Below are positions 10,251 through 31,502 of a stretch of DNA of 35,698 bases, piece by piece. Numbering within the stretch: the first letter of the stretch is position 1; each line of letters starts with the position of its first letter. The position numbers were made by a program, and so were the translations under genes. The stretch lies in assembly GCA_021736445.1 (NCBI GenBank), contig JAIPGA010000020.1, forward strand, positions 1-35,698. Direction: 5' to 3'. The notes beneath the pieces are model-generated. The model searched no databases, was not told where the DNA came from, and was given only the letters and a program-made list of their open reading frames with translations. Origin of the DNA: Synergistales bacterium (GTDB taxonomy: Bacteria; Synergistota; Synergistia; Synergistales; Aminiphilaceae).

Positions 10251-13136
10251 CTACCGCCGCAGCGCCAGGAGCCCCGGCACAATGAGGAGCAGCAGCGCCA
10301 GAGCGGAGGGGCCCATGCTGCAGCCGCCGCCGCTGTCGCCGGTCCCTGTGGGGCTCGGTTCCCCTGTGGGCGTTGCCGCCTGGTAGGTCACGATGGCTAC
10401 GTCGGTTTCCACGGTTCCCACAACCTGGTCCAGGTCGTAGTCGCCGTTATCCTTCACGCTCAGTGTGATCCCGTCGTCGGTCTCTTCGACATCCAGATCC
10501 TCGCTGATGTAGTCGGGATCGAATCCTTTCCAGTCGCCGCCCTGGTTTTTCACCAGCACCTTTGTCCTGGTTTCGGCCTGGGCGGTCATCTCGTTGCCGC
10601 CGCCATTGCCGATGGTGAAGCGTGTCTTGTCCGTTCCGGCTTCCAGTCTGGTTTTCACCGTGGTGGCCCGGGTCTTGTCCACATCGCCGTTGATCTCGCC
10701 GGAGTCCACCAGCCCCTGGACCTGCTGCTGGACTTCCTCCTTCTCTCCGTCGTCCATGGGCTCGACATCGGCGCTGACCGTGCCGGAATCCTCGTCAGGC
10801 GTCACGTCGTCGCTGTCCACATCCTCAGGCTCGGAGCCCGGTACCGGCGTGGGCGTGGGTCCGGAGGTCGGCGTGGCGGTGGGTGCCGTCGTCGGCGTAG
10901 GTGTGGCTGTGGGTGGCACAGATGTCGGCGTGGCTGTCGGCGCGGGGATCACCCGCTGGGCTTCATAGGCGCCGATGTCGGCCGTGCCGTCGGCCGGCCA
11001 GGGGCGCTGCATGCCGCGCTGGTCCATTGCGGGCGCGACGTCGTTGGATGCGTTGTCGAGCGCGGAGCTGCCGTAGAGAAGTGCGCAGGTCTTTGTGGGT
11101 CCGCCGTTGTCCTTCAGCGTGTCCAGCATCGGATCGGCGTTGGTGTTGTGGTCGCCGAAGATATTCGGGGTGCTCATGTTGAGAACACAGTAGTCGGCTG
11201 TCGATCCCTGGTCGTCGGAAAGCGTAATGAGGTCAGCCGCTTCATCCCAAAGGATTGAGTTTGTTGTTGTTACGGTAGAGGACTCCGCATAGATTGAATT
11301 GCCTTCTTGGCTGGCAGCGTTACCGACGAACGTGCAATTTTTGATAGTGGTTTCACTGCCTTCACGGGCATGAACGGCTCCTCCACGGCGCGAAGCAGAA
11401 TTGCCGTAGAAGGTGCAATTAACTATGGTTGGATTGCTTGGTGTCGGATCTTCATCCCTGTAGGCGGCAATTGCTCCACCATCATTGGTAGCATGATTAT
11501 TTTCAAATAGGCACCGCCTGATCGTGCTGTCGCTGGCAGGAACATTTGAAATAGCCCCAGCGAGTTTTCCCGCCGAGTTTCCAACAAAGTAACAATCCTC
11601 AATGACAGTATCACTGTCATACCAGTTGCCTATGGCTCCTCCTGAACGTGTATGGGCGGTATTGTTTTCAAAAAGTGAGTTTGAGATTTGAGCGGCTGAA
11701 CCTGAATTAACCACCGCACCGCCGCCCTGAAGCGCTTCGTTGTTCAGGAATTTACAATAGTTAATTACAGGGGAACACTGGTAATTGTATACTGCTCCAG
11801 CGGCCCCTGCCTTATTCCCGTCAAAGACATTATTGGTGATTGTGGCGTCTTTGTCCTTGCAGCAGAGAGCCCCGCCCCCCACCGCGGCCTGGTTGTCCAG
11901 AAAGGTGCAACGGCGAATGACAGGTCCGGCCTCGTTTTCGGGATGGTTGTCCTTTACATGAAATGCGACCCCGCCGCCGTCGCCGCTTTGGGCCCTGTTT
12001 GTGTGGAAGGTGCAGTCCTCAAGCACCAGATTGCTGTCGTTGTCGAGCAAGCCTCCGCCGCTTTCGTCAGCGGTGTTGCCGATGAAAACGCAACCGGAGA
12101 AGTCAGCCGTATAGCAGTGGCTTACCAGCACGCCGCCGCCGTGGAAGGCATTGTTCTCTTCAAAGGTGCACTGTTCTAGCGTTAAATTGCTCCGGTATGC
12201 CGAGAGGCCGCCTCCTAAATAAGTGGCATGGTTGTTCTTGAAGACGCAGTTTTTTATGGTCACTGTACTCATATAGGTGATATGGATACCTGCGCCGATT
12301 TTGTAATACTCTGAAGAATCCAGATCTGCGTATCCGTCACGGATGGTGAACCCGTCGAGAACCACTGTTCCGTCGTGGTCCTGCGAGCTGGTGTCGGGGT
12401 CGTCGATTGTCACCACATGGTAGCTGTTGTCGCTGCTCTCTTCCTTTGTTCCGATGTTGCCGGTGAGGATGGTTTCGTAGTTGCTGACACTCCGGTTCCC
12501 CATATCGCCGCCCCGGTTCGGGAAGCCGCCATACAGGGAGACGCCCTCTTTGATCTCAAAGGCGATGGCCCTGTCGTTGCTGGTGGGAGCTCCTTCAACG
12601 TCGGTGGGAGAGTAGGTCCCTTCGGCCACCCAGACCTCGTCGCCGGAGATAGCCTTCTGCAGGATGCCCGCCAGATCCGAGGAGGCGTTCTCCCAGCTTG
12701 AGCCGTCGCCGGAACCGTCTTCGGTGACGAAGTAGCGGGTGCCTGCGGCGTCGTCGGTGAAGGCCTTGAGACAGACATTGGCGTTGCTGTAGCCGGTGGT
12801 CAGATCGGTCCAGGCCGTCCCGTTGCGGGAGATGTAGCTCTGCCCCGCCGACGCCGTGGCGTTGCTGCTGCAGCCCCTGATCGGGCGTTCCACCGTGATC
12901 GGGTATTCATAGCCGTGACTGGTGAGCCGCACCACAACGGAGAAATAATCCCCTAATGCGGTATAGGTCGGACTGTCCAGCGGTACCGTCACGTAGCCGG
13001 AGTGGTCCAGCGAACCTACGGTGGTCCCGGCCGGAACCCCCTGTCCCGGGCTGACGGGCTCCGCCGGCAGGCCTGTGTAGACGGCGATCTCGTAGTCCGC
13101 GGAGGCGCCGTTGTTGTAGAACGAGACGGCCCTGAG
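10251..13136 (-). pseudogene. 3' part of a frameshifted protease/beta-helix surface protein
   Basis: This frame continues the protease gene at 13016-14278 after a one-base shift near 13130-13141. It first encodes a lectin-like beta domain (from AVSFYNNGASADYEI, about 120 residues). A long right-handed beta-helix with many NCTF/GGG rungs follows, then a Thr-Pro-rich linker and a small acidic domain of about 150 residues. It ends in GGGCSMG, a hydrophobic run and RR, the Synergist-CTERM pattern. About 961 residues are readable here. Upstream of 13136 the same open frame only shadows the protease and is not real. The rungs encoded at about 11400-11860 are absent from the paralog at 7159-8748 and are AT-richer. 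The whole is probably one surface protein of about 1,340 residues, broken here. Confidence 0.75.
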
Positions 13137-14278
13137 ACGGCTTCGTTGCCCTCGGCCTGGAAGACATTGGCGAACCAGGCGGTTTCCGAGTCGTACCCGA
13201 CGGTATCGCAGGCGCCCAGGGGATCGTACTGGTAGATATTGTCGTAGTTGTCGGTCTCCTCCACGGTGAAGGCGGTGCCGTGGTAGATGCCCTTGCTGTG
13301 GTAGGAGGCATAGAAGTATCCGTTGTCGCCCCAGTCGGTTCCCCAGCTGTTCCGGACGATCCAGGCGCCGTCCCCCGGAGGCTCCGTGGCGAAGTTCTCT
13401 CTGGGGTAGCTGTCGTTCCAGCCGACGATGCTGACGCCGTGGTTGGAACCGCCGGGGTCGTGGTCCAGATAGTAGGCGTGGTGCTTCGCGCTCCAGGCGT
13501 CCCCGGAGATGACCCCCGAATCGGGGATCATGGCTTCTGTGGCGTACATGCCGATGCCGATCGCTCCGTAATGCGTGAGGGCGTATTTTGTGTTGTCGGC
13601 GTTGATGGGGGGCTGGGGAGCGGAACGGGAGGGGGCCAGGTAGAGGTAGGAGGCATGTTGCAGATGCTTCCGCACCGTCTCGTTGCCGGTGGGGTTGGGG
13701 CCGCCGTAAGGAACGGCGCTCTCCCAAACCGGACAGTCCCACCTGGCCAGCACTGCCGTGGCTTGCAGGAAATCGCCGCCGGCGTCGGCCCAGGGTTCAC
13801 CGGTGTCGTTGTCGAAGGTTGGCGTTCCCTTGTACACCTCGTACCCCAGCTGCCACTCCGAGTAGTTCGCTTTGCCCATGCCCTGTTTCATCACGGAAGA
13901 CTCGATAGCCGCCTGGGTGGCGAAGGTCCAGCACAGGCCGTAGGGCCTCTGCTCCCGGATGGAGGAGACCTCGCCGCGTTCCCGCAGGTCGTAGGATGCC
14001 GGGAAGGTCTGCCGCTGTCTGCCGGATTCCGTCTTGAACATCCGCTGCCCGGCCAGGTGGGAGAGGTCCACCGGCGGAGGGATGTAGCCTGTCGGTCTCT
14101 GTTGACCTCCTCTATCGCTGTTCGGGCTGTTGTCACTCTGCTGTTTTTCCAGATAGGCGAGGAAGTCCGGGTTCAAAGGCGCCGAATGCGGTGTGGCCGC
14201 AAGGGCCGTTCCGCAGTAGAGCAGGGCCGCCAAAATGAACAATGACGCAATACAGGATCTTTGTGCGAAGGGTCTCAT
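13016..14278 (-). pseudogene. 5' part of the same gene: exported papain-like (C1A) cysteine protease
   Basis: The frame opens with a signal peptide (hydrophobic core, cut likely near GTALA at residue 27). A C1A peptidase domain follows, with Gln110, catalytic Cys116 in the GLCWTFA motif, His280 in NHGVSIVGW and Asn310 in RNSWG. All catalytic residues are intact. AAGGAGG precedes the ATG at 14278. After NVFQAEGNEA the reading frame becomes nonsense (Ser/Thr/Arg-rich), while sense sequence resumes in another frame at 13136; only about 380 residues are genuine. A missing base in this strain or an assembly error both explain it. The secreted protease plus lectin-like plus beta-helix order is typical of Synergistota surface proteins. 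Confidence 0.78.
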
Positions 14279-14660: not shown

Positions 14661-15473
14661 GTGGACAAGGCGGCGGCGGTCCGGGGGTTCTTCGCGGAAC
14701 GTCCCGATACATTGGTGCTCCTCTCCGGGGGGGTGGACAGCGCGGTGCTCGCTCTCCTGGCCGGAGAGGCGGCCCACAGGGTGCGGGCCCTGACGTTCCG
14801 GACGCCGCTGGTATCCGGGGACGAACTGGAGACAGCGGCGGCGGTGGCGGCGCATCTGGGCCTGCGGCACAGCGTTGCGGATGCGGATGTCACCACCGAC
14901 AGGCGCGTGACCGCCAACGGGCCCGACCGCTGTTACTGGTGCCGCAAAAAGCTCCATGCCAAGGCCTGGGAGGAGGCCCGCCGGCTGGGCTGCAGTACTG
15001 TGGCCGGCGGCGTCCAGGCCGATGAGATCGCTGAAGGGAGACCGGGGGTGCGTGCCGCCGCGGAGGACGGCATCAGCCACCCCCTGGCCGAGGCGGGCCT
15101 GACCAAGAAGGAGATCCGTTCGCTGGCCCGTGCGGCGGGGCTGCCCAACGCCGACCGGCCGCCGGCGCCCTGTCTGGCCACGCGTTTTCCTCCCGGTGTG
15201 TCCATGGATCCGCACTGGACGGGCCGGATCGGGGAAGCGGAGCGTCTCCTGAGGGGCGAAGGGCTGCGGGCGTTCCGGGTCCGCTGGTTTCCCCCTGGCG
15301 CGGCCATCCTGGAGGTGGCGCCCCGGGAGATGCCGCTGGTCTGGGAGCGAAAGGGGCGAATCGTGACGCTGCTCAGAGAGGTAGGGTTCCCTGTGGTCTC
15401 CCTCGATCTGGAGGGATTGCAGCGCGGCAAGATGGAACGTTTTGCGGAGGTGCCAGACCATGATCCTCGTTGA
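14661..15473 (+). CDS. larE: LarE: ATP-dependent sulfur transferase for the nickel-pincer cofactor
   Basis: The 270-residue product belongs to the PP-loop LarE family, with the loop LSGGVDSAV (Ser22-Ser27). LarE adenylates the pyridinium dicarboxylate precursor and adds the sulfur atoms that later bind nickel. Three cysteines stand out: Cys91 and Cys94 in CYWC and Cys171 in PCLATRFP. Enzymes with a single conserved Cys give up that sulfur, whereas those with three, as described for Thermotoga, hold a [4Fe-4S] cluster and may turn over repeatedly. This protein fits the second type. GAGGTG lies about 8 bases before the GTG start. It overlaps the next gene by 14 bases and heads the nickel-cofactor block. 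Confidence 0.9.
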   Translation: MDKAAAVRGFFAERPDTLVLLSGGVDSAVLALLAGEAAHRVRALTFRTPLVSGDELETAAAVAAHLGLRHSVADADVTTDRRVTANGPDRCYWCRKKLHAKAWEEARRLGCSTVAGGVQADEIAEGRPGVRAAAEDGISHPLAEAGLTKKEIRSLARAAGLPNADRPPAPCLATRFPPGVSMDPHWTGRIGEAERLLRGEGLRAFRVRWFPPGAAILEVAPREMPLVWERKGRIVTLLREVGFPVVSLDLEGLQRGKMERFAEVPDHDPR

Positions 15474-16539
15474 TCCCCAGTGCGGTGTGACGGCGTTCGG
15501 CCTGGCGGCGGTGCTGGAGGTCCTCTCTCCGGGAAAGGAGCGGGATGCGCTGGTTCTGCCCGGAGGGGAGCGGTTCGAGCTGGTCTTTGCGTCGGAACGG
15601 CGCGGCGGCAGGGAGGTGCGCACCGCTTCGGTGACCGGGAGCGGAACCTCCGATAGAGGCATTGCGATGGAGGAGGTCTCCGCTGCCCTCGGAGAGGACT
15701 TGGCCTCGGGCGTGTTGCAGGAGTGCCGGGACTATCTCCGTGAGCTGGCCGAGGTCTACGATGAGGCCGGCGAGGCGTCTCCCGGGGGAGGCTTTTGGAT
15801 TCAGTCCGCCCTGACGGCGCTGGCCGTGTTCCGCCGGATGGCCGTCCCCGGCCGGACATTCCGTTCCCTCCCTGCGGGTGTCGGCGCCGGTATGGAAGAA
15901 GACGGAGCCAGGGTGACACCGCTGCCCTGCCCCACCGTTCTGGAGGTGGCGCGCCGTTATGCCTTCCCGGTGCGCGGTCTTCCCGGAACGGGACGCCGCA
16001 GCGACGCGGCGGGGCTGCTCCTCCTGGCGCGGCTCTCTGCCCCTGTGGAGCGTCTGCCGTCGATTGTGCCGGGCAGGCAGGTCTACGGCGCCGGAGTCGG
16101 CGGGAGCACGGTGCGCGCCATGGAGCTCCGGGAGGCGGAGCTGGAGGAGGTCTGGCTGGTGGAGGCGGCTCTGGACGACGCCACCGGCGAGGAGATGGGC
16201 CGGGCCATCGAACAGATCCAGGAGGCGGCGCTGGAGGCCCACGTGGTCCAGGGGATCGGCAAGAAGGGACGGCCGCTCTATCTGCTGCGGGCCCTGGCGC
16301 GGGGCGACCAGCTGGAAGCGGTGCTGGAACGCTACTTCCGGGACACGCCCACCATCGGTGTGCGCTACTGGCCGGTGGGGCGCTTCCGGATGCAGCGGGC
16401 CGTCCGGGATGGCGAACTGCTGGTGGACGGTTGCCGCCTGCCCACCAGGGTGAAGATCTCCCGGTTGGGCGATATCCTCAAGGGGAAGGCCGAGGCCGAC
16501 GATATCGGGCGGTACCTCCGCACCCCGAAGGACGGGTAG
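15460..16539 (+). CDS. Divergent full-length LarC paralog
   Basis: The 359-residue product lines up with LarC along most of its length but is degenerate. PCPTVLEVARRYAFPVRG and the following SDAAGLLLL correspond to the PAPATL and TTPTGAVLL blocks of LarC1. LDDATGEEMG, GKKGRPLYLL and TPTIGVRY match the C-terminal LarC2 domain (DDMTGE, MKKGRPG, TTTIGVR). The LarC hallmarks CFSGISGDM and HFHEVGAVDSI are missing, so canonical nickel insertion is doubtful. It overlaps larE by 14 bases, with GGAGG 9 bases before the ATG at 15460, so the two are surely co-translated. Possible roles are a chaperone for LarE, a scaffold, or an insertase for a variant cofactor; none is proven. It is not annotated as larC because the real LarC1 and LarC2 are encoded downstream. 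Confidence 0.7.
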   Translation: MILVDPQCGVTAFGLAAVLEVLSPGKERDALVLPGGERFELVFASERRGGREVRTASVTGSGTSDRGIAMEEVSAALGEDLASGVLQECRDYLRELAEVYDEAGEASPGGGFWIQSALTALAVFRRMAVPGRTFRSLPAGVGAGMEEDGARVTPLPCPTVLEVARRYAFPVRGLPGTGRRSDAAGLLLLARLSAPVERLPSIVPGRQVYGAGVGGSTVRAMELREAELEEVWLVEAALDDATGEEMGRAIEQIQEAALEAHVVQGIGKKGRPLYLLRALARGDQLEAVLERYFRDTPTIGVRYWPVGRFRMQRAVRDGELLVDGCRLPTRVKISRLGDILKGKAEADDIGRYLRTPKDG

Positions 16540-16721: not shown

Positions 16722-17498
16722 ATGGACGAACGGGAACTGCGGCTGCTGGCGGAGAAACTGCAGAGCGGGGAGATCACGATCAGGAGCTTTGTGGATGCTC
16801 TGAAGGGGCTCCCCTTCAAGGATCTGGGAGAGGTCAAGCTGGATACCCACAGAGCCCTGCGGAACGGCTTCCCCGAGATTATCTACTGTCCCGGCAAGTC
16901 GCCTGGACAGCTGGAGCGCATTGCCGCGACCCTCGGCGAGGGGGGAGGCAATGCGCTTTTTTCGCGCATCGACAAGGAGCAATACGAACGGGTGCGTTCG
17001 CTGCTCCCCGGTCTGGAGTATCTCGAAAACGCCGGGATGGCCCGGCTCTGGCGGCAGAGGGACGTGGCGGAGAGGGGCCGGGTGCTCGTGGTCACCGGGG
17101 GCAGCAGCGATGTCCCCGTGGCCGAGGAGGCGGCCGTCACTGCGGAGACCATGGGCTGTACGGTGCGGCGGGTCTTCGACGTCGGTGTGGCGGGGCTGCA
17201 CCGGCTGCTGGCCAATCTCGACGCCATCTTTGAGGCCCGGGTCATCGTCGCCATTGCCGGGATGGACGGTGCTCTGCCCAGTGTCGTGGCGGGGATCGCC
17301 TCCTGTCCGGTGGTCGCCGTGCCCACCAGTGTGGGATACGGCGCGGCCCTGGGAGGGATCGCGCCGCTGCTGACGATGCTCAACTCCTGCGCGCTGGGTG
17401 TGACGGTGGTGAATATCGACAACGGTATCGGTGCGGGATACGCGGCGGCACTGATGGTGGATCACGACTCTACGGGGAGGGAAGGATCGGCTTCATGA
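16722..17498 (+). CDS. larB: LarB: NaAD carboxylase/hydrolase of nickel-pincer cofactor synthesis
   Basis: The 258-residue product matches LarB, a relative of PurE that carboxylates the pyridinium ring of nicotinic acid adenine dinucleotide and releases AMP. The N-terminal half has FPEIIYCPGKSP, and the PurE-like half begins at VVTGGSSDVPVAEEA and runs through AGMDGALPSVVAG and VPTSVGYG to the C-terminal GIGAGYAAA. Length and motifs are normal. A weak GGAG precedes the ATG at 16722. It overlaps larC1 by an ATGA, which suggests translational coupling. Confidence 0.93.
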   Translation: MDERELRLLAEKLQSGEITIRSFVDALKGLPFKDLGEVKLDTHRALRNGFPEIIYCPGKSPGQLERIAATLGEGGGNALFSRIDKEQYERVRSLLPGLEYLENAGMARLWRQRDVAERGRVLVVTGGSSDVPVAEEAAVTAETMGCTVRRVFDVGVAGLHRLLANLDAIFEARVIVAIAGMDGALPSVVAGIASCPVVAVPTSVGYGAALGGIAPLLTMLNSCALGVTVVNIDNGIGAGYAAALMVDHDSTGREGSAS

Positions 17499-18343
17499 AT
17501 ACTGTCCTCTATCTCAACTGTTTTTCCGGTATCAGCGGCGATATGGTGCTGGGCGCCCTCCTGGATATCCTGGGGGAGCGGGAGCTGCAGCCCTTCCTCG
17601 AGGGGCTGGCGCTGGAGGGATACGGCGTGACGGTGCGGCAGGCGAAGAAGGCGGGCATCGCGGGACTGGATGTGCAGGTCCACGCCGAGGAGGCCCATCC
17701 GCATCGGGGGCTGCGGGATGTGCTGGATATCCTGGAGCAGAGCGAGCTGAGCCCCTTTGTGCAGGAGAAGGCCGGGGCCGCCTTCCGTCTGATGGCCGAC
17801 GCCGAGGGCGTCGTCCACGGCATGCCGCCGGAGGAGGTGCACTTCCACGAGGTCGGCGCCGTGGATTCCATCGTGGATATCGTCGGCGCCTGTGCCCTGA
17901 TGGAAGCCCTGCAGCCCGCGGCGGTTGTCGCCTCGGCCGTCAATGTGGGGTCCGGTACAGTGCACTGCGCCCACGGCGAGTTCCCCGTTCCGGCCCCGGC
18001 GACACTGAAACTCCTGGAGGGAATCCCCGTCTATGCCAGGGGCGAGGCCATGGAACGCACCACTCCCACCGGTGCGGTGCTGCTGCGGACCTTTGCCGAT
18101 CGCTACGGACTGCTGCCCCGGGGTGTGGTGGCCGCCACCGGCTATGGTCTGGGCGACCGCGATTCGGACCTGCCCAACCTGCTGCAGGGGGTGTTGCTGG
18201 AGGCCTCCGGGCATACCCAGGGCCGGGAGGAACACCACGGCCATCCGCAGGAACACGCCGGGCATCAACACGGCCATCCCCACGAGCATCCCCACAGTCA
18301 CGACCATCACCACGGAGGGGAACACGACGCCCCGGCAGAGTAA
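17495..18343 (+). CDS. larC1: LarC1: N-terminal half of nickel insertase, with His-rich tail
   Basis: The 282-residue product is the N-terminal LarC domain (DUF111 family), which with LarC2 inserts nickel into the pincer cofactor in a CTP-dependent reaction. Hallmarks are CFSGISGDM (about residues 9-17), EEVHFHEVGAVDSIVDIVG and TTPTGAVLL. Instead of continuing into the CTP-binding domain it ends in a His-rich tail (about residues 237-282) that probably binds or stores nickel. In Lactobacillus plantarum LarC1 and LarC2 arise by programmed frameshifting from one locus; here the second half is a separate gene 2.2 kb downstream, with another gene between. Confidence 0.9.
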   Translation: MNTVLYLNCFSGISGDMVLGALLDILGERELQPFLEGLALEGYGVTVRQAKKAGIAGLDVQVHAEEAHPHRGLRDVLDILEQSELSPFVQEKAGAAFRLMADAEGVVHGMPPEEVHFHEVGAVDSIVDIVGACALMEALQPAAVVASAVNVGSGTVHCAHGEFPVPAPATLKLLEGIPVYARGEAMERTTPTGAVLLRTFADRYGLLPRGVVAATGYGLGDRDSDLPNLLQGVLLEASGHTQGREEHHGHPQEHAGHQHGHPHEHPHSHDHHHGGEHDAPAE

Positions 18344-18664
18344 GAGGCGAATCCGGGCTTTCCCCGGCAGCCGATAGATGGAGTCAGCCCGTCTGCGGCG
18401 CAGCGTCTGCGTGACGCAACGCGAAAAGCAGCCCCCCAGCGGGGTGTCTGCAGCCGCAGGCGGGGAGGGACATCTCTCGCCCGTCACAGCCCACAATGGT
18501 TGGCCTGGGAGATCGGTACGATCTGTTGCCGCTGTCACACCGCAGCGGAACGGTGCGGAACGAGCAGAAAGGGGGTATGGGTGGAGGGAGACATCCCGTC
18601 TGACGGAAACAGAAGTGATTGAGCCAAAATGAAGAGTTTCGAATCCCAGGAGGTGTATACGGTA
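18344..18664 (+). other. Leader/intergenic region before the 596-residue gene
   Basis: No gene is supported. Several potential stems are visible: GCGTC/GACGC (18403-18407/18413-18417), CCCC/GGGG within GCAG/CTGC (18428-18451), and the inverted repeat AGATCG-GTA-CGATCT (18510-18524). The length is unusual for a gap inside an otherwise tightly packed block and suggests a regulated leader or a promoter. It does not match a cobalamin or NiCo riboswitch as far as I can tell. Confidence 0.4.
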
Positions 18665-20455
18665 ATGCAAAAGGAGATCTATGCCGCCATCGCGGCGTCC
18701 AATACCTTTGTAGAGAACACCACAAGCGACCGTCTCGAGGCGATCACCAAGGGCCACGGCATGCTGAACCTCGCCGTCTACAGCGCGGCGAACGCGATGA
18801 CCGAGGAGATCCTCAACGGCAGGAGCACCAAGCTCTCCGACGCCAATATGGAGTATCTGCCGGTGGACTGCATCATGGACAAGGGGATCGAGGCCGCCAA
18901 GGAGGCCGGCGCCGACGCCGCCAACGCGGCGCTGATCGTCGCGGTCTTTCTGAACCTCGCCGGCACCGCCTCCAGAGCAGGCGTCCCGGCGGGGAACCGC
19001 AAGCTCGGCTCCATGGCCAGAATGAAGGCCGGTGCGAGCAGAGCCGGTGTCCAGGCGATCCCCACCTCGAAGCTGACCAACAAGATCTCCGCCTTCCCGG
19101 CGGTGAAAGCCATCTACGACGCCATCGACAAGGGCGAGATCACCCGCTTCAATGGCGCCGACGTACCGCCCTTCGTGGCAGGCGGCGCCGTCTACGGGCA
19201 TAGCGTGCTCGGTGAGGACATGATCTATGCCGACATCACCCTGAAGGGGACCAAGGTGGGCGTGGAGGCCATGTTCCGGGCCTACCAGAACGTGGGCATC
19301 AACCCCAATCCCTGGCTGTCGGCGGCGCTGGCCGCTGCAGCGACGCTGGAGATCGTCAACCCCGACGGCATGATCGGCGAGGAGTACGGCGAGTTCTTTG
19401 TCCAGGGGACGGGCTATCTGGCCGGCAAGGGCGCCGCCGAGGCGGCCGGCTTGCCGGAGAAGCTCCACCTCCGCGGTACCGGCGAGGAGTTCGACACGGC
19501 TTCCCTCATCGGTGACCTGGGCATGATCCTCAAGGACGTGGGCGCTCCGACCGTTGTTGGGATGATGACCTTCAACGAGATGATGGCCGCCTTCCAGGAA
19601 GGCCCGATGATCGGCGCGGGTTTCGGCGCCGGCCCGGTCAACCCGCCGCTGGCCCATCTGGTGGGGGACTGCATCTGCGCCGCCAAGAAGCTCATCGACA
19701 CCGAGGGCGACAAGGACGCCGCCGCCGACATGATCCGGGAGATGAAGCTCAACGAGTGGATCGATCCCGAGATCTCGGCCTTCTCCGGCAACACGGTGGC
19801 CCACAAGGCCGAACAGGTGCGGCGCGGCCCCGTGACCTCGGCGGTGATCATGGGCACCCAGGGAATCCGCAACAACATGGAGTACCGGCTGGCCAAGTAT
19901 GCCCTGGACGAGCTTGAAGCCGGCAAGGATCTCAAGGATATCTGCTACGACATCGACGTGAAGCGCCAGGAGAAGGTGGAGCAGCGTACCGGTATGATTC
20001 TGGGCGGGCTCTTCGGCAAGGAGATCGGCATCAAGTTCAGTAAGCTGAAGGGCGGCGCCCGCCGCAGCCATCCCTTCGCCGAGACCTTCTGGGGCTTCGA
20101 CGCCGATATCGACGCCGTTGTCACCGTGGACGGCAAGGAATTCAAGATCGAAGGCCTGTCCCACAAGACGGTGCCCGATGTGGTGCTCAACAAGAAGTCC
20201 GACTGGACCATTCCTATCACGGTGGCTTCCGTGGCGGCCCAGGAGCTCATGTACATCGGCTGCTGCACGGTGAACGTGGTGATCCCCGCCGCTGTGGCGG
20301 CGACCTCCGGCAAGATGGGCTGGAAGGACGCCGGCAAGTACGCCGAGAAGGGCGCCAGCATCACCAACGCCATCCCCGGCGCCAAGGACAAGGCCCGCGA
20401 GGTGGCCCGTCTGGCCGTGCGTCTCATGCAGGATATGGAGGACGTCAAAGAGTAG
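18665..20455 (+). CDS. Unrecognised 596-residue protein inside the lar locus
   Basis: I do not recognise this family. The ATG at 18665 is chosen because an excellent AGGAGGTG lies 9 bases upstream; an in-frame ATG at 18629 has no such site. The protein is rich in Ala and Gly with no signal peptide or clear membrane helix, so it is probably a cytoplasmic enzyme. Candidate metal or catalytic residues are histidines in [27 protein letters not shown] and EGLSHKTV and the Cys pair in YIGCCTVN. It shows none of the LarA signatures I know. The strong ribosome site, consistent use of GC-ending codons and a stable hairpin after the stop suggest high expression. Its place between larC1 and larC2 suggests it uses or helps build the nickel-pincer cofactor; that is inference. 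Confidence 0.7.
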
Positions 20456-20469
20456 GAACGCTATGGTGG

Positions 20470-20497
20470 AAGGAGGGGGCCGGATGGCCCCCTCCTT
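20470..20497 (+). terminator. 12-base-pair hairpin between the 596-residue gene and larC2
   Basis: AAGGAGGGGGCC (20470-20481) pairs perfectly with GGCCCCCTCCTT (20486-20497) around a GGAT loop, 15 bases after the stop codon. The T-run is short, so it may act as a partial terminator or as an RNA-stabilising hairpin that raises the upstream message above larC2 and the genes beyond. Confidence 0.65.
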
Positions 20498-20525
20498 TGC
20501 TGCCTGCAAGAGAGATGGGGTGTCC

Positions 20526-21044
20526 ATGCTACTGCTGGTCAATGCCGACAACATTTCCGGTGAGGGGCTTCCCTACCTGATCGACGGACTGATGGACCGT
20601 GGTGCGGCGAGTGTCCATGCCGTTCCGGCCGTTACCAAGAAGGGGCGCAGCGAGTTCCTCTTCTTTATCGATGCGCCCCGGAGCTGTCTGCAAGCCCTGG
20701 GGGCCTTTCTGGCGCTGGAGCTGGACACGTTGGGCATGAGGGTCATCGAGCCGGAGCATGTGCCCTTCACGCCCGTACGGCACAGGGTGGTCGGCGTTGC
20801 GGCGGAAGGTCTCCGGGGAGCCTCACTGGAGGTGCGCGTCAAGGAGACCCGGGGAACCGACGGCGCGCGTTCCTGCAAGGCCGAGTACGATGACCTGGAG
20901 CGGGTGCTGCAGAGCGGCATGGCCGACCCCCCTCTCTCCTTCAAGATCGTGAAGTCCGCCGTGGAGCTTGCCGTCATGAGCGGCGAGCCGGTCCATGTGG
21001 GCGGACTGGGTTTTACCCCGCCTGAAGAAACCGAAGGGGCGTAA
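20526..21044 (+). CDS. larC2: LarC2: CTP-binding half of nickel insertase
   Basis: The 172-residue product corresponds to the C-terminal LarC domain, which binds CTP and manganese and carries out cyclometallation. Matching blocks are VNADNISGEGLPYLIDGLMDRGA (read in parts), VTKKGR (about residues 37-42) and EYDDLERV near residue 120. The longer frame from 20463 would run through the 12-base-pair hairpin, so the ATG at 20526 is preferred; GTG at 20520 is an alternative. It follows the unknown 596-residue gene and precedes the methylene-H4MPT dehydrogenase gene by 40 bases, linking the nickel block to the one-carbon block. Confidence 0.83.
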   Translation: MLLLVNADNISGEGLPYLIDGLMDRGAASVHAVPAVTKKGRSEFLFFIDAPRSCLQALGAFLALELDTLGMRVIEPEHVPFTPVRHRVVGVAAEGLRGASLEVRVKETRGTDGARSCKAEYDDLERVLQSGMADPPLSFKIVKSAVELAVMSGEPVHVGGLGFTPPEETEGA

Positions 21045-21084: not shown

Positions 21085-21948
21085 GTGAAAAAGATTCTGC
21101 TTCAGCTGGATACCGACATACAGCCCAGTGTGTTCGACGCGGTGACGGCCTACGACGGCGGCGCCGACGCCCTCCTGCAGCATGGAGGGATCACGCCGGA
21201 GAACGCCGTGCCCCTGGTGCACGGGGTGATGTTCACCCGGGGCGGCGAGAAGTCGAAAAACAGCGCCGTCTTTGTGGGCGGCTCCGATGTGGCCGCCGGC
21301 GAGGCGGTGATGGAGGCCGTCAAGGGCGCCTTCTTCGGGCCGGTGCGCAACTCGGTGATGCTCGATTCCAACGGCTGCAACACCACCGCCGCGGCGGCCG
21401 TGGCCAAGCTGGTCGGCGTGGCGGACGTGAAGGACCGGAAGGTCGTTGTGCTGGCCGGAACCGGCCCGGTGGGACAGCGTGCGGCGGGCTTCTTCGCAGG
21501 CGAGGGCGCCAGGGTCACCCTCACCTCCCGGAGCATGGAGAAGGCACAGAGGGCCTGCGATCAGGTGAACAGGCGTTTCGACAGCAATGTGGAAGCGGCC
21601 GAGGTGAACGACGAAGCCTCCACCGCCGCCGTGCTGGAAGGCGCCGTAGCGGTGCTGGCCACCGGGGCCGCCGGAACGATGCTGCTCCCCGAATCGATCT
21701 GGAAGGGCCACGCCACCCTGAAGGCTTTGGGCGATCTCAACGCCGTACCGCCTTCGGGGATCGAGAACATCAAGCCCCACTGGAACGGCAAGGATAAGGA
21801 CGGCCAGATCATCTTCGGCCCCATCGGTGTGGGCGGTTTGAAGATGAAGGTTCAGCGGGAGTGCGTGGCCCGGCTCTTCGGGAGCAACGAACTGGTGCTG
21901 GATGCCGGTGAGGTCTACGATATCGTGAAGGAGCTCAAAAACGACTGA
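21085..21948 (+). CDS. mtdA: NAD(P)-dependent methylene-H4MPT dehydrogenase, MtdA type
   Basis: The 287-residue product closely follows the MtdA/MtdC family, which oxidises methylene-H4MPT (or methylene-H4F) to the methenyl form with NAD(P)+. Seen motifs are QLDTDIQPSVFD, YDGGAD, MLDSNGCNTTAAAA and the nucleotide-binding loop LAGTGPVGQRAAG (about residues 119-131), then DLNAVPPSGI and GVGGLKMK. The length equals MtdA of Methylorubrum. The GTG start is set by GAAGGAG upstream; an earlier GTG-type extension has no family match. NAD versus NADP preference cannot be read with confidence. It opens the H4MPT block and would pass its product to Mch (33255). Confidence 0.88.
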   Translation: MKKILLQLDTDIQPSVFDAVTAYDGGADALLQHGGITPENAVPLVHGVMFTRGGEKSKNSAVFVGGSDVAAGEAVMEAVKGAFFGPVRNSVMLDSNGCNTTAAAAVAKLVGVADVKDRKVVVLAGTGPVGQRAAGFFAGEGARVTLTSRSMEKAQRACDQVNRRFDSNVEAAEVNDEASTAAVLEGAVAVLATGAAGTMLLPESIWKGHATLKALGDLNAVPPSGIENIKPHWNGKDKDGQIIFGPIGVGGLKMKVQRECVARLFGSNELVLDAGEVYDIVKELKND

Positions 21949-22011: not shown

Positions 22012-23172
22012 GTGTCCCCTGCCGATGCTCCCCTCCTTCTGGTGGGATTCAGCATCAGGGCGATGGCCTGCTCCGCCGCGATCGCGGGATACCGCCGGAT
22101 CACGGCGGTGGACGCCTTCGGCGACAGCGACCTCCACGGCTGCGCCCGCACCGTCTCCACGGGACGCGATCTGGGGATGCCCTTCTGCGACCAGGCGCTG
22201 CGTTCCGCCTGTGCGGGGATCCCGCGGCGCTGGTTCGCCTACGGTGGAGGGATGGAGCATCGTCCCGACCTGGTGGCGGAGCTCGCCGGGGGAGCTGGTC
22301 TGCTGGGCAACCCGCCGGAGGTCCTCCGGCGGGTTCGTGATCTCCGGCGGCTCCACCGTGTCTGCCGGGAGGAGGATATCCCCGTACCGGCCACGCTGCA
22401 CCCTCCGCAGGACAGCTGTCCCAGAGACGGTGCCTGGCTGCGCAAGCGGACCGCTTCGGCAGCGGGGGCCGGTGTGTGCGGGGATGACGGGGGTTCTCTC
22501 CGGGAGGGCGAGGTCTTTCAGCGGCATGTCCCGGGGCGGGTGATCTCCTGTGCCTTCCTGGCCGCTCCCGAGGGGGTGCGGCTCCTGGGGGTCACCGAAC
22601 AGCTGGTGGGGCGGGAGGCCTTCGGCGCTTCGGGGTTTCTCTGGTGCGGGAATGTCACGCCCCTGCCGGGGAAAAGCGAAATGGTGCGGTGGGTTGCGGA
22701 GCACTGCCGGCGCTACGCCGGGGCGCTCACCGGAAGGTTCGGTCTGGTGGGGCTGAACGGCATCGACTTGGTGCTTCCCCCCGCGGGACCGCCGGTGCTT
22801 CTGGAGGTGAACCCCCGCTTTACGGGCTCTATGGAACTCTTTGACGTTCCGGACAGACCGCTTTTCGGGCTCCACAGTGCGGCCTGTCTGGAGGGGGAGC
22901 TGCCTGATGCGGGTCCTTGGGAGGAAGGGGGGCTCTTCAGGGGGAAGGCCGTCGTCTATGCCCGCAGACCCTGCCGTGCCCCCGGTACGGATGAATGGCG
23001 CCGGCGGGGGCGGCGGGACATCCCCTGGAAGGGGGACCGTTTCGCGTCCGGTGAGCCCATCTGCACCGTTCTGGCCTCGGCTCCCGATGGGGCGGGCTGT
23101 CTGAACGGACTGGAGCGTCAGGCGGAGGATGTCTACCGCGAGATGCTGTGTCTCCGGGATGGTGCGGGCTGA
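22012..23172 (+). CDS. ATP-grasp protein of the H4MPT/methanofuran cluster
   Basis: The 386-residue product resembles the predicted ATP-grasp ligases that accompany H4MPT genes in methylotrophs and archaea. It starts with LLLVGFSIRAMACSA and AVDAFGDSD, a Rossmann-like N-domain typical of that group. Near residues 250-275 it has the ATP-grasp metal-binding core GLVGLNGIDLVL...LLEVNPRFTGSMEL. ATP-grasp enzymes join a carboxylate to an amine, so glutamate addition to the methanofuran or H4MPT side chain is a reasonable guess, not proven. The GTG start at 22012 lacks a good ribosome site and could be a few codons off. The fwdD gene follows after 49 bases. Confidence 0.75.
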   Translation: MSPADAPLLLVGFSIRAMACSAAIAGYRRITAVDAFGDSDLHGCARTVSTGRDLGMPFCDQALRSACAGIPRRWFAYGGGMEHRPDLVAELAGGAGLLGNPPEVLRRVRDLRRLHRVCREEDIPVPATLHPPQDSCPRDGAWLRKRTASAAGAGVCGDDGGSLREGEVFQRHVPGRVISCAFLAAPEGVRLLGVTEQLVGREAFGASGFLWCGNVTPLPGKSEMVRWVAEHCRRYAGALTGRFGLVGLNGIDLVLPPAGPPVLLEVNPRFTGSMELFDVPDRPLFGLHSAACLEGELPDAGPWEEGGLFRGKAVVYARRPCRAPGTDEWRRRGRRDIPWKGDRFASGEPICTVLASAPDGAGCLNGLERQAEDVYREMLCLRDGAG

Positions 23173-23221
23173 TGCCTCTCAGGATTGCCAAGGAAGAGCG
23201 GGAAGGAGGAACCAGACCACT

Positions 23222-23572
23222 ATGGCTGATGTGGATACTGCCCGTCGGTTCGTGCTCGTCACGGGACGGACGCCTGGGCAGACCAGAGGGATGCACCGGG
23301 GGAAGACCACCGACGAGTACCGGGAGGCCGTCTCGGTGGTGCAGCTGCACCCCGAGGCCCTGTCGGTGCTGGGTGTTCGGGAGGGGCAGACGCTTCTGCT
23401 GCGCACCGCCGCCGGCGAGGAAAGCTTCACGGTCCGGACGGACAGCGGGCTGCCCCGGGACATGGTGTTCGTCCCCATGGGTCCGGCGGCGAACACCCTG
23501 GTGCCCCCGGAGACGGCGGGGTGCGGGATGCCGTCCTTCAAGGGGCTTGCCGTGGAGGTGATCCCGCAATGA
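23222..23572 (+). CDS. fwdD: Formylmethanofuran dehydrogenase subunit D (molybdopterin-dinucleotide-binding)
   Basis: The 116-residue product matches archaeal FwdD/FmdD: GRTPGQTRG near the start, TDEYREAVSVVQLHPE, then MVFVPMGPAANTLV, and finally GMPSFKGLAVEV. In archaea FwdD folds with FwdB to hold the tungsto- or molybdo-bispterin cofactor. GGAAGGAGG lies before the ATG at 23222, and the longer frame is rejected because the family starts at this point. It overlaps fwdB by ATGA. As far as I know the formyltransferase/hydrolase complex of methylotrophic Proteobacteria has no FwdD, so this subunit argues for a redox-active complex. Confidence 0.88.
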   Translation: MADVDTARRFVLVTGRTPGQTRGMHRGKTTDEYREAVSVVQLHPEALSVLGVREGQTLLLRTAAGEESFTVRTDSGLPRDMVFVPMGPAANTLVPPETAGCGMPSFKGLAVEVIPQ

Positions 23573-24879
23573 AAGAGATCAACAATGCTGTCTGCACCTT
23601 CTGCGGTTGCCTCTGCGACGATATCGCCGTGGTCCTGGGTGATGACGGCGGCGTGCGGGTGAAGGGCGCCTGCACCAACGGGAAGGGGCACATCGAGGGC
23701 TACGACGCCGCACCGGTCTCTCCCATGGTCCGGGGGGAGCCTGTCTCCTGGGACCAGGCACTGGACGAGGCCGCGGCGATCCTCGGTGACGCCGAAAGCC
23801 CGCTGATCTACGGCCTCAGCTCCACGGCCTCGGAGGCCCAGCGGAGATGCGTGGCCCTGGCCGACCGGATCGGTGCGGCCATCGACACCACCTCCTCGGT
23901 CTGCCACGGTCCCACGGGGATCGCCATGCAGAACTTCGGCGAGCCCACCTGCAGCCTCGGCGAGGTGTTGAACCGGGCGGACCTGCTGCTCTTCTGGGGC
24001 TGCAACCCCGCCGTGGCCCACACCAGGCACTTCACCCGCTACTCGCTGATGCCCAGGGGACGGTTCACCCCCAGGGGGAGGAAGGACCGGAGGATGATCC
24101 TCGCGGATGTCCGGCGGACACCCAGCGCGAACGCCGCCGACCGCTTCCTGCAGGTGGAGCAGGGGAGCGACTACGAGGTGCTGGGTGCCTTGCGGGCGCT
24201 GGTGCAGGGGAAAAGGGTCCGTGCCGATTCGGTGGGCGGCGTGCCCCTGGAGGAGCTCGGCGCCCTGGCCGAGGAGCTCGGGAGCTGCCGCTACGGTGCG
24301 GCCTTCTTCGGCATGGGGCTCACCATGACCTCCGGGCGGGATCTCAACATCGGGCAGTACTTCTCGCTGGTCCGTGATCTCAACGCCCACACCCGTTTTT
24401 CGGTGGTCGCCCTGCGGGGCCACGGCAACGTGGCCGGCGCCGATGCGGTGATGACCTGGCAGACCGGCTACCCCTTCGCCGTCAGCCTGGCCGGCGGCGT
24501 GCCCACCTACGGACCCGGCGAGTTCACCGCCGTGGACATGCTGTCGCGGAGGGAGGCCGACGCGGCGCTGGTTGTCGCCTCGGATCCCGGGGCGCACTTC
24601 CCGGCCGGAGCGGTCCGGGGGCTGGAGGGGATCCCCAGAGTGGTGATGGACCCTGTCGTTTCGCTCACCGCACAGGACGCCACGGTCTACCTGCCCACCG
24701 CCCAGTACGGCGTGGACGCCGAGGGGACCTACTACCGGATGGACGGGGTGCCCATCCGGACCCGTGCCTTCCGGGAACGGCTGCGCCCCACCGATGAAGA
24801 GGTCTTTGACGGTGTCCTGGAGCGGCTCCACGGCGGCCGGGTGGAGTCGACGACACCGATTGAGGAGGTGCAGCGATGA
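23569..24879 (+). CDS. fwdB: Formylmethanofuran dehydrogenase subunit B (W/Mo catalytic subunit)
   Basis: The 436-residue product is the catalytic subunit that interconverts CO2 and formate in formylmethanofuran dehydrogenase. It keeps the [4Fe-4S] motif Cys9-x2-Cys12-x3-Cys16 with Cys35, and the metal-ligand Cys112 in SSVCHGPTG, the counterpart of the W/Mo-binding Cys or Sec in methanogens. Further family blocks are LLFWGCNPAVAHTRH, FFGMGLTMTSGR, LRGHGNVAG, ASDPGAHFP and DAEGTYYRMDGVPI. In the hydrolytic FhcB of methylotrophs these ligand residues are reported lost. GGAGGTGATC precedes the ATG at 23569; a start at 23521 would only lengthen the overlap with fwdD. It overlaps fwdA by ATGA. Which metal is used cannot be told. 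Confidence 0.92.
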   Translation: MKEINNAVCTFCGCLCDDIAVVLGDDGGVRVKGACTNGKGHIEGYDAAPVSPMVRGEPVSWDQALDEAAAILGDAESPLIYGLSSTASEAQRRCVALADRIGAAIDTTSSVCHGPTGIAMQNFGEPTCSLGEVLNRADLLLFWGCNPAVAHTRHFTRYSLMPRGRFTPRGRKDRRMILADVRRTPSANAADRFLQVEQGSDYEVLGALRALVQGKRVRADSVGGVPLEELGALAEELGSCRYGAAFFGMGLTMTSGRDLNIGQYFSLVRDLNAHTRFSVVALRGHGNVAGADAVMTWQTGYPFAVSLAGGVPTYGPGEFTAVDMLSRREADAALVVASDPGAHFPAGAVRGLEGIPRVVMDPVVSLTAQDATVYLPTAQYGVDAEGTYYRMDGVPIRTRAFRERLRPTDEEVFDGVLERLHGGRVESTTPIEEVQR

Positions 24880-26564
24880 GCGGAACGCAGCCGGTGGGCA
24901 TCCTGGGCGGCTTCCTCTACGATCCCGCCAACGGTGTGGACGGAGCGGTCCGGGATATCTGGATCAAGGACGGCAGGGTGGCGGCCCCCGAGGAGGTGGA
25001 TCGGGAGCATGCCCGCATCATCGATGCCCGGGGGATGAATGTCTTTCCCGGCGGCGTGGACCTCCACGCCCACATCGCCGGCGCCAAGGTGAACCACGGC
25101 CGCAAGCTCTGCCCCGAGGACCATGCCGACCACAAGCGGAACCGCGCCGAAGGGGGCCGTTCCGGGGCGGGCTTCACCGTGCCCACCACCTTCATGACGG
25201 GCTGCATGTACGCCGAACTGGGCTACACCACCGTGATGGAGGCGGCCTGCGCCCCCCTTGTCGCCCGCCACACCCACGAGGAGCTGGAGGACATGCCTCT
25301 GCTGGACAAGGGGATCCTGGTGACCCTGGGCAACAACGAGTTCCTCTTCGACTGCATCGCCCGGGGCGAGACGGAGCGGGCCAGGGATTTCATCGCCTGG
25401 ACGCTCCAGGCCGCCCGGGGGTACGGCATCAAGGTGGTCAACCCCGGCGGCGTGGAGAACTGGAAATCCCAGCGGGGGAACGCCCACCACTGGGATCAGG
25501 AGATCGCCGGTTTCGGCCTGACCCCCCGGAGGGTGCTGGACACACTGATCGGGGCGGCCGACGAACTGGGTCTGCCCCACGGCGTGCACCTCCACGGGCT
25601 CAACCTGGGGACCCCCCAGAGCGCCGAACAGACCCTGGAGTCCATCCGCTTCGCCCAGGGGCGGCTGCACCTGACGCATCTGCAGTTCATGAGCTACGGT
25701 GACGACGGCAAGGGGCGGTTCCGGAGCCGCACCGAAGAGCTGGCCGAGGCGGTGAACGCCAACAGCAACGTCACCTTCGACGTGGGGCAGATCGTGTTTG
25801 GTCCGGCCACCACCATGACCTCCGACGGGCCGTTCCAGTACAACCTGGGCTGTATGACGGGTCACAAGTGGTTCGGCGGCGACGAGGAGAACGAGACCGG
25901 CGGCGGCATCGTGCCGCTGCGGTACAGCCGGAAGAACAGGATCAACGCCCTGCAGTGGGTAACGGGGCTGGAGCTCTTCCTTCTGGCCGAGGATCCCTGG
26001 CGGGTGGCCCTCACCACGGACCATCCCAACGCCGGGCCCTTCTTCTGCTATCCCCAGGTGATCCGGCTGCTCATGGACCGGGACTACCGGGCGGAGATCC
26101 TGGAGACGCTGCCCGCTTCGGTCCGGAAGCGCTCGCTGCTGAAAGACATCGACCGGGAGTACACCCTCGGGGAGATCGCCATCATCACCCGGGCCGCACC
26201 GGCCCGGATCCTGGGGCTCTCCCGCAAGGGACATCTCGGTGTGGGCGCCGACGGCGACGTGGCTGTCTACCATCCCGACGACGACGGCGCACGGACACCC
26301 AGATGCCGCAGCGTCGTTCCCTGCCGGCGGGCGCTGGACCTGCCGCGCTGGGTGCTGAAGGGAGGCCGGGTGGTGGTAGAAGCCGGGAGGTTCACCGGGG
26401 AGACCGGCGATGCGGGCACCACCTTCCATGTGACGCCGGACTACGATCCCTCGGTGGAGAAGCCGCTGCGGAACCACTTCAAGCGGTACTACTCCGTGGC
26501 CTTCGACAACTATCCCGTGCAGGACGCCTACCTGGGGAGCGGGGAGTCGGTCCCATGCCGGTAA
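24876..26564 (+). CDS. fwdA: Formylmethanofuran dehydrogenase subunit A (formamide hydrolase site)
   Basis: The 562-residue amidohydrolase-fold subunit links formate and methanofuran at a two-zinc site. Seen ligands are His64 and His66 (DLHAHIAG), the lysine to be carboxylated Lys186 (GIKVVNPGG), His240 or His238 (GVHLHGLN), His268 (LTHLQ) and Asp382 (TTDHPN). The full length and motif order match archaeal FwdA and bacterial FhcA. It starts within the fwdB stop codon and its end overlaps the folK-mptA gene by 10 bases, so all are probably one operon. In the complex formate is expected to move through an internal tunnel between FwdB and FwdA. Confidence 0.94.
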   Translation: MSGTQPVGILGGFLYDPANGVDGAVRDIWIKDGRVAAPEEVDREHARIIDARGMNVFPGGVDLHAHIAGAKVNHGRKLCPEDHADHKRNRAEGGRSGAGFTVPTTFMTGCMYAELGYTTVMEAACAPLVARHTHEELEDMPLLDKGILVTLGNNEFLFDCIARGETERARDFIAWTLQAARGYGIKVVNPGGVENWKSQRGNAHHWDQEIAGFGLTPRRVLDTLIGAADELGLPHGVHLHGLNLGTPQSAEQTLESIRFAQGRLHLTHLQFMSYGDDGKGRFRSRTEELAEAVNANSNVTFDVGQIVFGPATTMTSDGPFQYNLGCMTGHKWFGGDEENETGGGIVPLRYSRKNRINALQWVTGLELFLLAEDPWRVALTTDHPNAGPFFCYPQVIRLLMDRDYRAEILETLPASVRKRSLLKDIDREYTLGEIAIITRAAPARILGLSRKGHLGVGADGDVAVYHPDDDGARTPRCRSVVPCRRALDLPRWVLKGGRVVVEAGRFTGETGDAGTTFHVTPDYDPSVEKPLRNHFKRYYSVAFDNYPVQDAYLGSGESVPCR

Positions 26565-28021
26565 GCGGACAGCCTGCCCACGAGGTGTACCTGCTGCTGG
26601 GCGCCAACCTGGGCGACCGGCAGAGCAACATGCTCCAGGCGCTGCAGTACCTGCAGGGACGGGCCGTGATCGAGCGTGTCTCCTCCTTCTACGAGACCGA
26701 ACCGGTGGGGTACGCCGACCAGCCCTGGTTCCTCAACCTGGTCTGCCGGCTGCGCACGGACATGGAGCCGGTGGAGTTCCTGCGCTTTCTCAAATCCATC
26801 GAGATGCGCATGGGGCGGGTGGACAGCTTCCGGAACGCCCCCCGTCCCATCGATCTGGACATCCTGGTCTATGACGATCTCCAGATGGACACCGGGGAGC
26901 TCACCATCCCCCACCCCAGGATGGCCGAGCGGGCCTTTGTCCTGGTGCCCTTCGCGGAGCTGGACCCCCATGTGGTGCCGGCCGGGTACAGCCGCTCCGT
27001 CGGGGAGCTTGCCTCCGCGATGGACGGCAGCGGTGTCGTCAAGGTGGAGCAGAGCCTGCGCTTCAATCTGGAGCGGGACATCCAGCGGGGCAAACCCGCC
27101 GTGCCGGTGAGCCTCAGCCGGGTGGGGGTGACCAACCTCCAGCGGATCATCCGGATGAGCGACCACGGCAAGGAGACCCTCTTTTACGCAGAGATGGATC
27201 TGTTCGCCTATCTCAGTGAGGCACAGACGGGGATCCATATGTCCCGGTTCAGCGATGTGCTGGAGCGCCTGGTGGAGGAGATCACCCTGGAGGCCTCCAC
27301 CAGCATCGAGGGGATCGCCGAGCGGCTGGCCCGCCAGGTGACCCGCACCCAGGAGGCGGAGCGTGCGGAGGTGCACATCCGGGCCAAGTATCCCCTCAAG
27401 AAACGCACGCCCATCTCGGGCAAAAGGGTGGAGGAGCTCTACACCTTCATCGGAATCGCCGCCTGCAACGGCCGGGAGACCCGTCGCCTGGTCGGTGTGG
27501 AGGTGGAGGGGATGACCGCCTGTCCCTGCGCCCAGGACATGATCCGCAGCCACTCCAGGAAACTCCTGGTCGATGAGGGGTACAGCGAGGAGGACGCCCG
27601 ATACATCGTGGACCTCCTGCCGCTGGCCTCGCACAACCAGCGCGGACGGGGAACCCTGCTCATCGGCAGCGAGCAGGCGGTACGCGCCGAGTATCTGGTG
27701 CATGTTCTGGAGGCCTCCATGAGCTCCGAGACCTACGAACTGCTCAAGCGTCCCGATGAGTTTTTCGTGGTCAACAAGGCGCATCAGAACCCGATGTTCA
27801 CCGAGGATGTGGTCCGGGAGGTCTTCCGGAATCTGGTGGACATCTATCCCGATCTGCCGGACGACAGCTTTGTCCTGGTGCGGCAGGAGAATCTGGAGAG
27901 CATCCACCAGCACAACGCCTTCGCCGAGCGTTCCGGTACCCTCCGGGCCATCCGGTCGGAGCTGGAAAGCGGACAGGGCGTCGGCGAGGCCCTGACGCTG
28001 GAGGAGTGGCTGCGTTTCTGA
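26555..28021 (+). CDS. Fusion of HPPK (FolK) and MptA/FolE2-type GTP cyclohydrolase
   Basis: The 488-residue protein joins two pterin enzymes. Residues about 10-165 are a bacterial 6-hydroxymethyl-7,8-dihydropterin pyrophosphokinase, with LLLGANLGDR, FYETEPVG, WFLNLV and the signature RPIDLDILVYDD (97-108). Residues about 185-488 are a type IB GTP cyclohydrolase with HMSRF (228-232), TACPCAQ (321-327) and SHNQRG (359-364); the last two look more like the iron-dependent archaeal MptA than bacterial FolE2. Together they would supply the first and a later step of the pterin half of H4MPT. Archaea use the unrelated MptE for the kinase step, so the fusion mixes bacterial and archaeal solutions. 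The ATG at 26555 follows GGGGAG and overlaps fwdA. Confidence 0.9.
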   Translation: MPVSGQPAHEVYLLLGANLGDRQSNMLQALQYLQGRAVIERVSSFYETEPVGYADQPWFLNLVCRLRTDMEPVEFLRFLKSIEMRMGRVDSFRNAPRPIDLDILVYDDLQMDTGELTIPHPRMAERAFVLVPFAELDPHVVPAGYSRSVGELASAMDGSGVVKVEQSLRFNLERDIQRGKPAVPVSLSRVGVTNLQRIIRMSDHGKETLFYAEMDLFAYLSEAQTGIHMSRFSDVLERLVEEITLEASTSIEGIAERLARQVTRTQEAERAEVHIRAKYPLKKRTPISGKRVEELYTFIGIAACNGRETRRLVGVEVEGMTACPCAQDMIRSHSRKLLVDEGYSEEDARYIVDLLPLASHNQRGRGTLLIGSEQAVRAEYLVHVLEASMSSETYELLKRPDEFFVVNKAHQNPMFTEDVVREVFRNLVDIYPDLPDDSFVLVRQENLESIHQHNAFAERSGTLRAIRSELESGQGVGEALTLEEWLRF

Positions 28022-31483: not shown

Positions 31484-31502
31484 AGGAATGGAGGAACCTC
31501 AA

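Follow-up and report, generated by a model that had tools for sequence, protein, structure and literature searches.

A candidate second family of nickel-pincer nucleotide enzymes encoded beside solitary LarC2 proteins in bacteria and methanogens

Introduction

LarA is the only enzyme known to use the nickel-pincer nucleotide (NPN) cofactor. Members of the LarA superfamily, characterized by the Lar_N (PF09861) and LarA_C (PF21113) domains, are racemases and epimerases of lactate, malate and gluconate.

LarA binds NPN through a histidine on the nickel and often through a lysine, and LarC is reported to make a cytidinylylated (CMP-bearing) P2TMN intermediate that it later hydrolyzes (PMC11796402). 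Genomes that are larBEC-positive and larA-negative have been predicted to hold further NPN-binding proteins (PMC11796402).

Here, we analyze a 596-residue protein, called X below, that is encoded among NPN biosynthesis genes in the window, i.e., the whole 35,698-nucleotide stretch of Synergistales DNA under study. A preliminary description of this DNA had proposed X as a candidate second nickel-pincer enzyme, and our results support this reading: X matches no known family, and its relatives are found nearly always in genomes carrying larB (38 out of 41). The literature searched, which took in few subscription journals, contained no description of the X family.

Gene organization of the locus

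The genes of interest form a same-strand block on the forward strand in the order larE-like, divergent larC-like, larB, larC1, X, solitary larC2 and mtdB, followed by a methanofuran/H4MPT C1 cluster. Profile matches bear out the earlier placement of larB and larC1 before X and larC2 after it on the same strand. LarB, the carboxylase/hydrolase of NPN synthesis, occupies positions 16722–17498 (NF033503, 8.8e-83), and LarC1, the N-terminal half of the nickel-inserting cyclometallase, positions 17495–18343 (TIGR00299, 1.6e-59). Downstream of X lies a solitary LarC2-like protein (LarC2s; 20520–21044), which belongs to the LarC2 family with 52.4 bits against the NF052512 cut-off of 50 and is the candidate dedicated maturase of X. 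Two further genes extend the earlier gene list. One encodes a LarE-like ATP-pyrophosphatase (sulfur insertase; 14661–15473) related to the larE gene of the rhizobial X operons, and the other a second, divergent LarC-like protein (15442–16539) with an intact LarC2 domain, a KKGR motif and an eroded LarC1 part. The LarC1 part of this protein has no recognizable motifs, and it is possibly a regulatory or maturation paralogue.

Directly 3′ of LarC2s, an MtdB-like methylene-tetrahydromethanopterin dehydrogenase is encoded at 21085–21948 (PF09176, 2.9e-28). The C1 cluster then spans 22012–35101 on the same strand and comprises genes for an ATP-grasp protein (starting at 22012), a molybdopterin-binding protein (23129), FmdB (23521), FmdA (24876), a DUF6513/DUF4346 protein (28107), a DUF447 and GHMP kinase protein (29897), Ftr (31470), a GXGXG subunit (32402) and a RimK-type ATP-grasp protein (34193). 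No Rfam riboswitches were found within the window. On the reverse strand, positions 10254–14278 encode a large beta-helix/lectin-like protein that adjoins a papain-family cysteine protease with a lectin-like domain and is probably surface-exposed.

The preliminary description had also drawn on the lack of a LarA homolog. The window indeed contains no LarA, but the source genome carries one on another contig (G000:C64:12113-12721, 7.4e-60, with a second match), so that, in its original form, the argument built on the absence of LarA is weak.

The open reading frame of X is intact, running from ATG at 18665 to TAG at 20453–20455 on the forward strand, and close relatives that share the initial methionine support this start. 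The strong ribosome site noted earlier is AGGAGGTG at 18648–18655, and the hairpin after the stop codon is a GC-rich one at 20466–20502, within a stretch (20453–20525) that folds with −37.1 kcal/mol (z −3.6). Since larC2 probably starts at GTG 20520 or ATG 20526, and not at ATG 20463, the hairpin stands between X and larC2 rather than inside larC2. Its position is kept with a different sequence in five out of six relatives folded, namely Synergistota loci L018 and L019 and Desulfobacteria loci L025, L063 and L028; no such hairpin was seen downstream of X in the sixth, L020. This arrangement is consistent with the production of more X than LarC2.

The codon usage of X (effective number of codons, 34.2; GC3, 0.89) resembles that of the C1 enzymes FhcA and FhcB in the window (31.7 and 33.5) and not that of the lar genes (38.5–40.9), with MtdB left out of the comparison. 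Across loci, in length-matched comparisons, the codon bias of X exceeded that of the LarC halves (p = 0.0007) and marginally that of LarE (p = 0.03), while the difference from LarB was not significant (p = 0.23). High expression of X, as suggested previously, is plausible on the evidence from the window.

X represents a protein family with an apparently new fold

X had no match in Pfam, NCBIfam, PHROGs, PADLOC or PDB sequences, and its Pfam search remained empty up to E = 1, with neither Lar_N nor LarA_C detected. A match to a known nickel-independent family, which had been named as a refuting result, was thus looked for in these databases and not found. Profile searches of Pfam and PDB with the X profile and with its relatives (the latter to E = 10) gave chance-level matches only; weak PDB profile matches to ribosomal S24, a designed repeat and 4h7l were judged to be of this kind. 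A serine dehydratase/cysteine desulfidase assignment was also considered, and neither Pfam, PDB profiles nor Foldseek supported it. The absence of a LarA motif noted earlier was borne out at the profile level, where comparison with an 11-sequence LarA alignment gave an hhalign probability of 0.14%, i.e., unrelated.

A scan of GTDB species genomes recovered 91 relatives, of which 80 were kept (39–80% identity, mostly full length). They span about eight bacterial phyla and methanogens: Synergistota, Chloroflexota, Thermodesulfobacteriota, Bacillota, Actinomycetota, Pseudomonadota and one Balneolaceae MAG are among the sources, and cultivated carriers include Rhizobium tropici CIAT 899, Eubacterium callanderi, Acetomicrobium hydrogeniformans, and Methanolobus and Methanosarcina species. 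One Acetomicrobium-group genome holds a decayed X (L009; G011:C1:927500-927670) with ~57 residues left, in frame with unrelated sequence.

An AlphaFold2 model built from 73 sequences was largely helical and of high confidence (pLDDT 92.6, pTM 0.92). Foldseek returned no PDB match at E ≤ 0.001 (best E, 0.3), with TM-scores of at most 0.19 among the matches listed and nothing LarA-like among the 50 matches listed; a viral fold library likewise gave no match. The LarC2s model served as a positive control in the same pipeline and returned the LarC2 crystal structures 6bwq and 6bwo with a probability of 1.0, so the fold search can be trusted. Judged from the model, the fold of X is apparently new.

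Ten basic residues are invariant across the 73 sequences: H31, H179, H331, K113, K136, K290, R112, R119, R126 and R467. The PAGNRK loop (residues 108–113), which holds R112 and K113, is likewise invariant. By their nature, the invariant residues would be able to bind nickel and a nucleotide.

A solitary LarC2 protein accompanies X

In 86 out of 97 loci, X has a same-strand neighbor, no more than 500 bp away, that encodes a LarC2 domain without a fused LarC1. These loci are partly redundant; after collapsing at 80% identity, the association was seen in 35 of the 39 groups. Six of the 11 exceptions (L022, L073, L013, L087, L092 and L093) reach a contig end, and at two more (L024 and L053) a solitary LarC2 stands 1.3–1.8 kb from X. 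L088 has its sole solitary LarC2 at a distance on the opposite strand, and none was found near X in L067 and L071. The partner is encoded upstream of X in most Firmicutes and downstream elsewhere.

LarC2s of the window matches the profile of 6bwo (7.5e-11), and its KKGR motif is retained along with other invariant residues. For the window and the Firmicutes, a simpler account may be that LarC has been split into LarC1 and LarC2s, with X placed between the two parts. Methanogens and rhizobia encode a full-length LarC, whose LarC2 part carries KKGR, alongside LarC2s, and the solitary protein is thus an extra copy there. A tree separated the X-linked solitary proteins, LarC2s of the window among them, from fused LarC2 domains by a branch with 97/97 support; as it contains few fused rows and long branches, this separation is indicative.

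X co-occurs with NPN biosynthesis and takes the position of LarA

Homologs occurring mostly outside lar genomes would have spoken against a role in NPN biochemistry, and the opposite was observed: the relatives are mostly linked to lar genes, and LarB is present in 38 of the 41 X-positive genomes across many phyla, including genomes in which it is not beside X. It was not found in the remaining three (G188, G204 and G216). LarA scored above the cut-off in 24 of these genomes, lying near X in L060, L067, L076 and L088, and did not do so in 17, of which 16 have LarB. The exception, Anaerosphaera multitolerans (G204, L050), encodes X, LarC2s and LarC1, with neither LarB nor LarA found.

Among 188 genomes of the window's phylum, LarB exceeded the cut-off in 167, whereas any X match was found in 13 (12 long, one a fragment). 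LarB is near-universal there, so its co-occurrence with X within this phylum is uninformative; the far greater rarity of X in turn indicates that it is not needed for NPN synthesis.

Rhizobia strengthen the case beyond what the window offers by itself, with LarA-less genomes that combine X and larBCE. Their gene order is X-LarC2s-LarC-LarE-LarB, often with a gene for a NixA-type nickel transporter after it, and other Rhizobiaceae have LarA-LarC-LarE-LarB (L107, L108 and L110). Because the operon orders match and the X-carrying genomes have no LarA, X with LarC2s can be said to occupy the LarA slot; X is thus found where the apoenzyme gene of a lar operon would be expected, including in genomes without LarA. 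A sample of 200 Rhizobiaceae contained LarB in 10 genomes, far less often than the X-positive genomes do (38 of 41), and X in one. Of these 10 LarB-positive genomes, LarA is present in six, X in one (G226) and neither in one; the other two show a weak LarA-like match close to larB.

L106 and L109 are LarB loci with no LarA by phmmer and a weak Lar_N match near larB (E ~1e-4), corresponding to a strongly divergent LarA-like protein. At L111 (G316), a larC-larE-larB operon occurs in a genome in which the search recovered no LarA or X; the upstream same-strand gene is aldo/keto-reductase-like and is possibly another orphan NPN user.

Two clades of X differ in metabolic neighborhood

The X tree comprises two main clades: clade A with the X of the window, other Synergistota, Chloroflexota, Desulfobacteria and methanogens, and clade B, which includes the rhizobia. 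Ftr, a marker of H4MPT C1 metabolism, was present in 16 of 18 clade A and 5 of 25 clade B bacterial genomes tested (Fisher p ~1e-5, with the genomes being related and hence not independent). C1 genes stand beside X in nine bacterial loci. The relation is one-way, since four X-less Synergistota also carry Ftr. Clade A enzymes, the one in the window included, probably feed or draw on H4MPT C1 metabolism. Formaldehyde-activating enzyme (Fae) was considered as the C1 entry point and is absent from the source genome and most C1-linked X genomes, an absence that is suggestive only.

Rhizobial X genes are preceded in the same direction by amino-acid ABC transporter, MalY-like and RidA genes, and MalY-like or RidA-like genes occur near X in some Firmicutes too. 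In Anaerosphaera (L050 and L052), X-LarC2s-LarC1 stands between a SelD/TusA-like/aminotransferase-V set and folate C1 genes; the aminotransferase-V is cysteine-desulfurase-like, and the folate genes are of the FTHFS, FTCD_N and FTCD_C types. In A. multitolerans, with no LarB found, a seleno- or salvaged pincer might conceivably be in use. In Lachnospiraceae, HxlR-type regulators, sugar-acid genes and LarA found beside X were too variable for a substrate assignment. Taken as a whole, the neighborhoods suggest a chemistry of small amino or hydroxy acids with a connection to C1 units.

Discussion

On the evidence of sequence, genomic context and model, we consider it likely that X belongs, as the apoprotein, to a second NPN enzyme family distinct from LarA, with LarC2s as its dedicated maturase. 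X would use the cofactor made by LarB, LarE and LarC, which LarC2s would finish or hand over. The NPN mononucleotide could dock in the largely helical protein through invariant arginines and lysines (the PAGNRK loop, R119, R126 and R467), with one invariant histidine (H31, H179 or H331) completing the nickel square and the remaining histidines and acidic residues forming putative acid–base pairs. The cofactor would then reversibly take a hydride from a substrate of the small amino- or hydroxy-acid type. Several observations weigh against this reading: LarA is also present in 24 of the 41 X-positive genomes and in the source genome, A. multitolerans has X with neither LarB nor LarA found, and LarC1 and LarC2s of the window and of Firmicutes may be parts of a split LarC.

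A constant LarC2s partner, adjoining X in almost every group, would also be expected if X carried or stored NPN or served as a scaffold for its assembly, working with LarC2s to supply LarA or some other target with the cofactor, and LarA does share a genome with X in the 24 cases above and sits near it at four loci. Such a role is nevertheless unlikely: most LarA- or LarB-containing genomes do without X, a carrier in the LarA-less rhizobia would have no recipient, within the window X has a codon bias like that of abundant metabolic enzymes and unlike that of lar biosynthesis genes, and its invariant His/Asp/Glu set looks catalytic. The embedding of X among larB, larC and larE in several phyla could alternatively reflect an additional biosynthetic step, in which X would, e.g., modify a precursor or serve as another donor of nickel or sulfur. 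We regard this as distinctly improbable, as the known steps of NPN synthesis are complete without X, most LarB-positive genomes of the phylum have no X, and X keeps its own LarC2s even beside the full-length LarC of methanogens and rhizobia.

It is more improbable still that X is a nickel-independent C1 or amino-acid enzyme whose presence in lar operons is incidental. Clade A X genes do head H4MPT C1 clusters, and the rhizobial ones do follow amino-acid ABC transporter, MalY and RidA genes; these partners, however, vary by lineage, whereas the LarC2s partner hardly ever does. Within the preferred reading of X as an NPN enzyme, a more specific and rather unlikely version is that X uses CMP-capped NPN and that LarC2s may keep or restore the cap. 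If so, X would be the first nickel-pincer dinucleotide enzyme, with a new fold, a reaction beyond 2-hydroxy-acid racemization and a possible link to H4MPT C1 units.

X is a concrete, testable candidate NPN enzyme found in both bacteria and archaea. If the assignment is true, organometallic nickel biochemistry would gain a second protein family with an apparently new fold, which may link NPN to C1 metabolism.

Among described systems, X fits the predicted class of NPN-binding proteins in larBEC-positive, larA-negative genomes (PMC11796402) in 16 of the 41 X-positive genomes. No cyanobacterial relative was among the 80 X loci kept, and X is probably not the cyanobacterial NPN-binding protein. 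LarC2s shares the fold, KKGR motif and invariant residues of the LarC2 domain of the nickel-inserting cyclometallase LarC (PDB 6bwo/6bwq/6bwr), but it is not fused to LarC1 and falls on the other side of the dividing branch in the tree. X itself differs from the LarA superfamily in having no sequence or profile similarity to it, in being mostly helical with no PDB fold match, and in bringing a solitary LarC2 of its own, absent from those rhizobial LarA operons that were examined. Like LarA, however, X fills the slot before larC-larE-larB in Rhizobiaceae, appears by association to depend on the same biosynthesis genes, and has invariant histidines and lysines that could bind nickel and cofactor.
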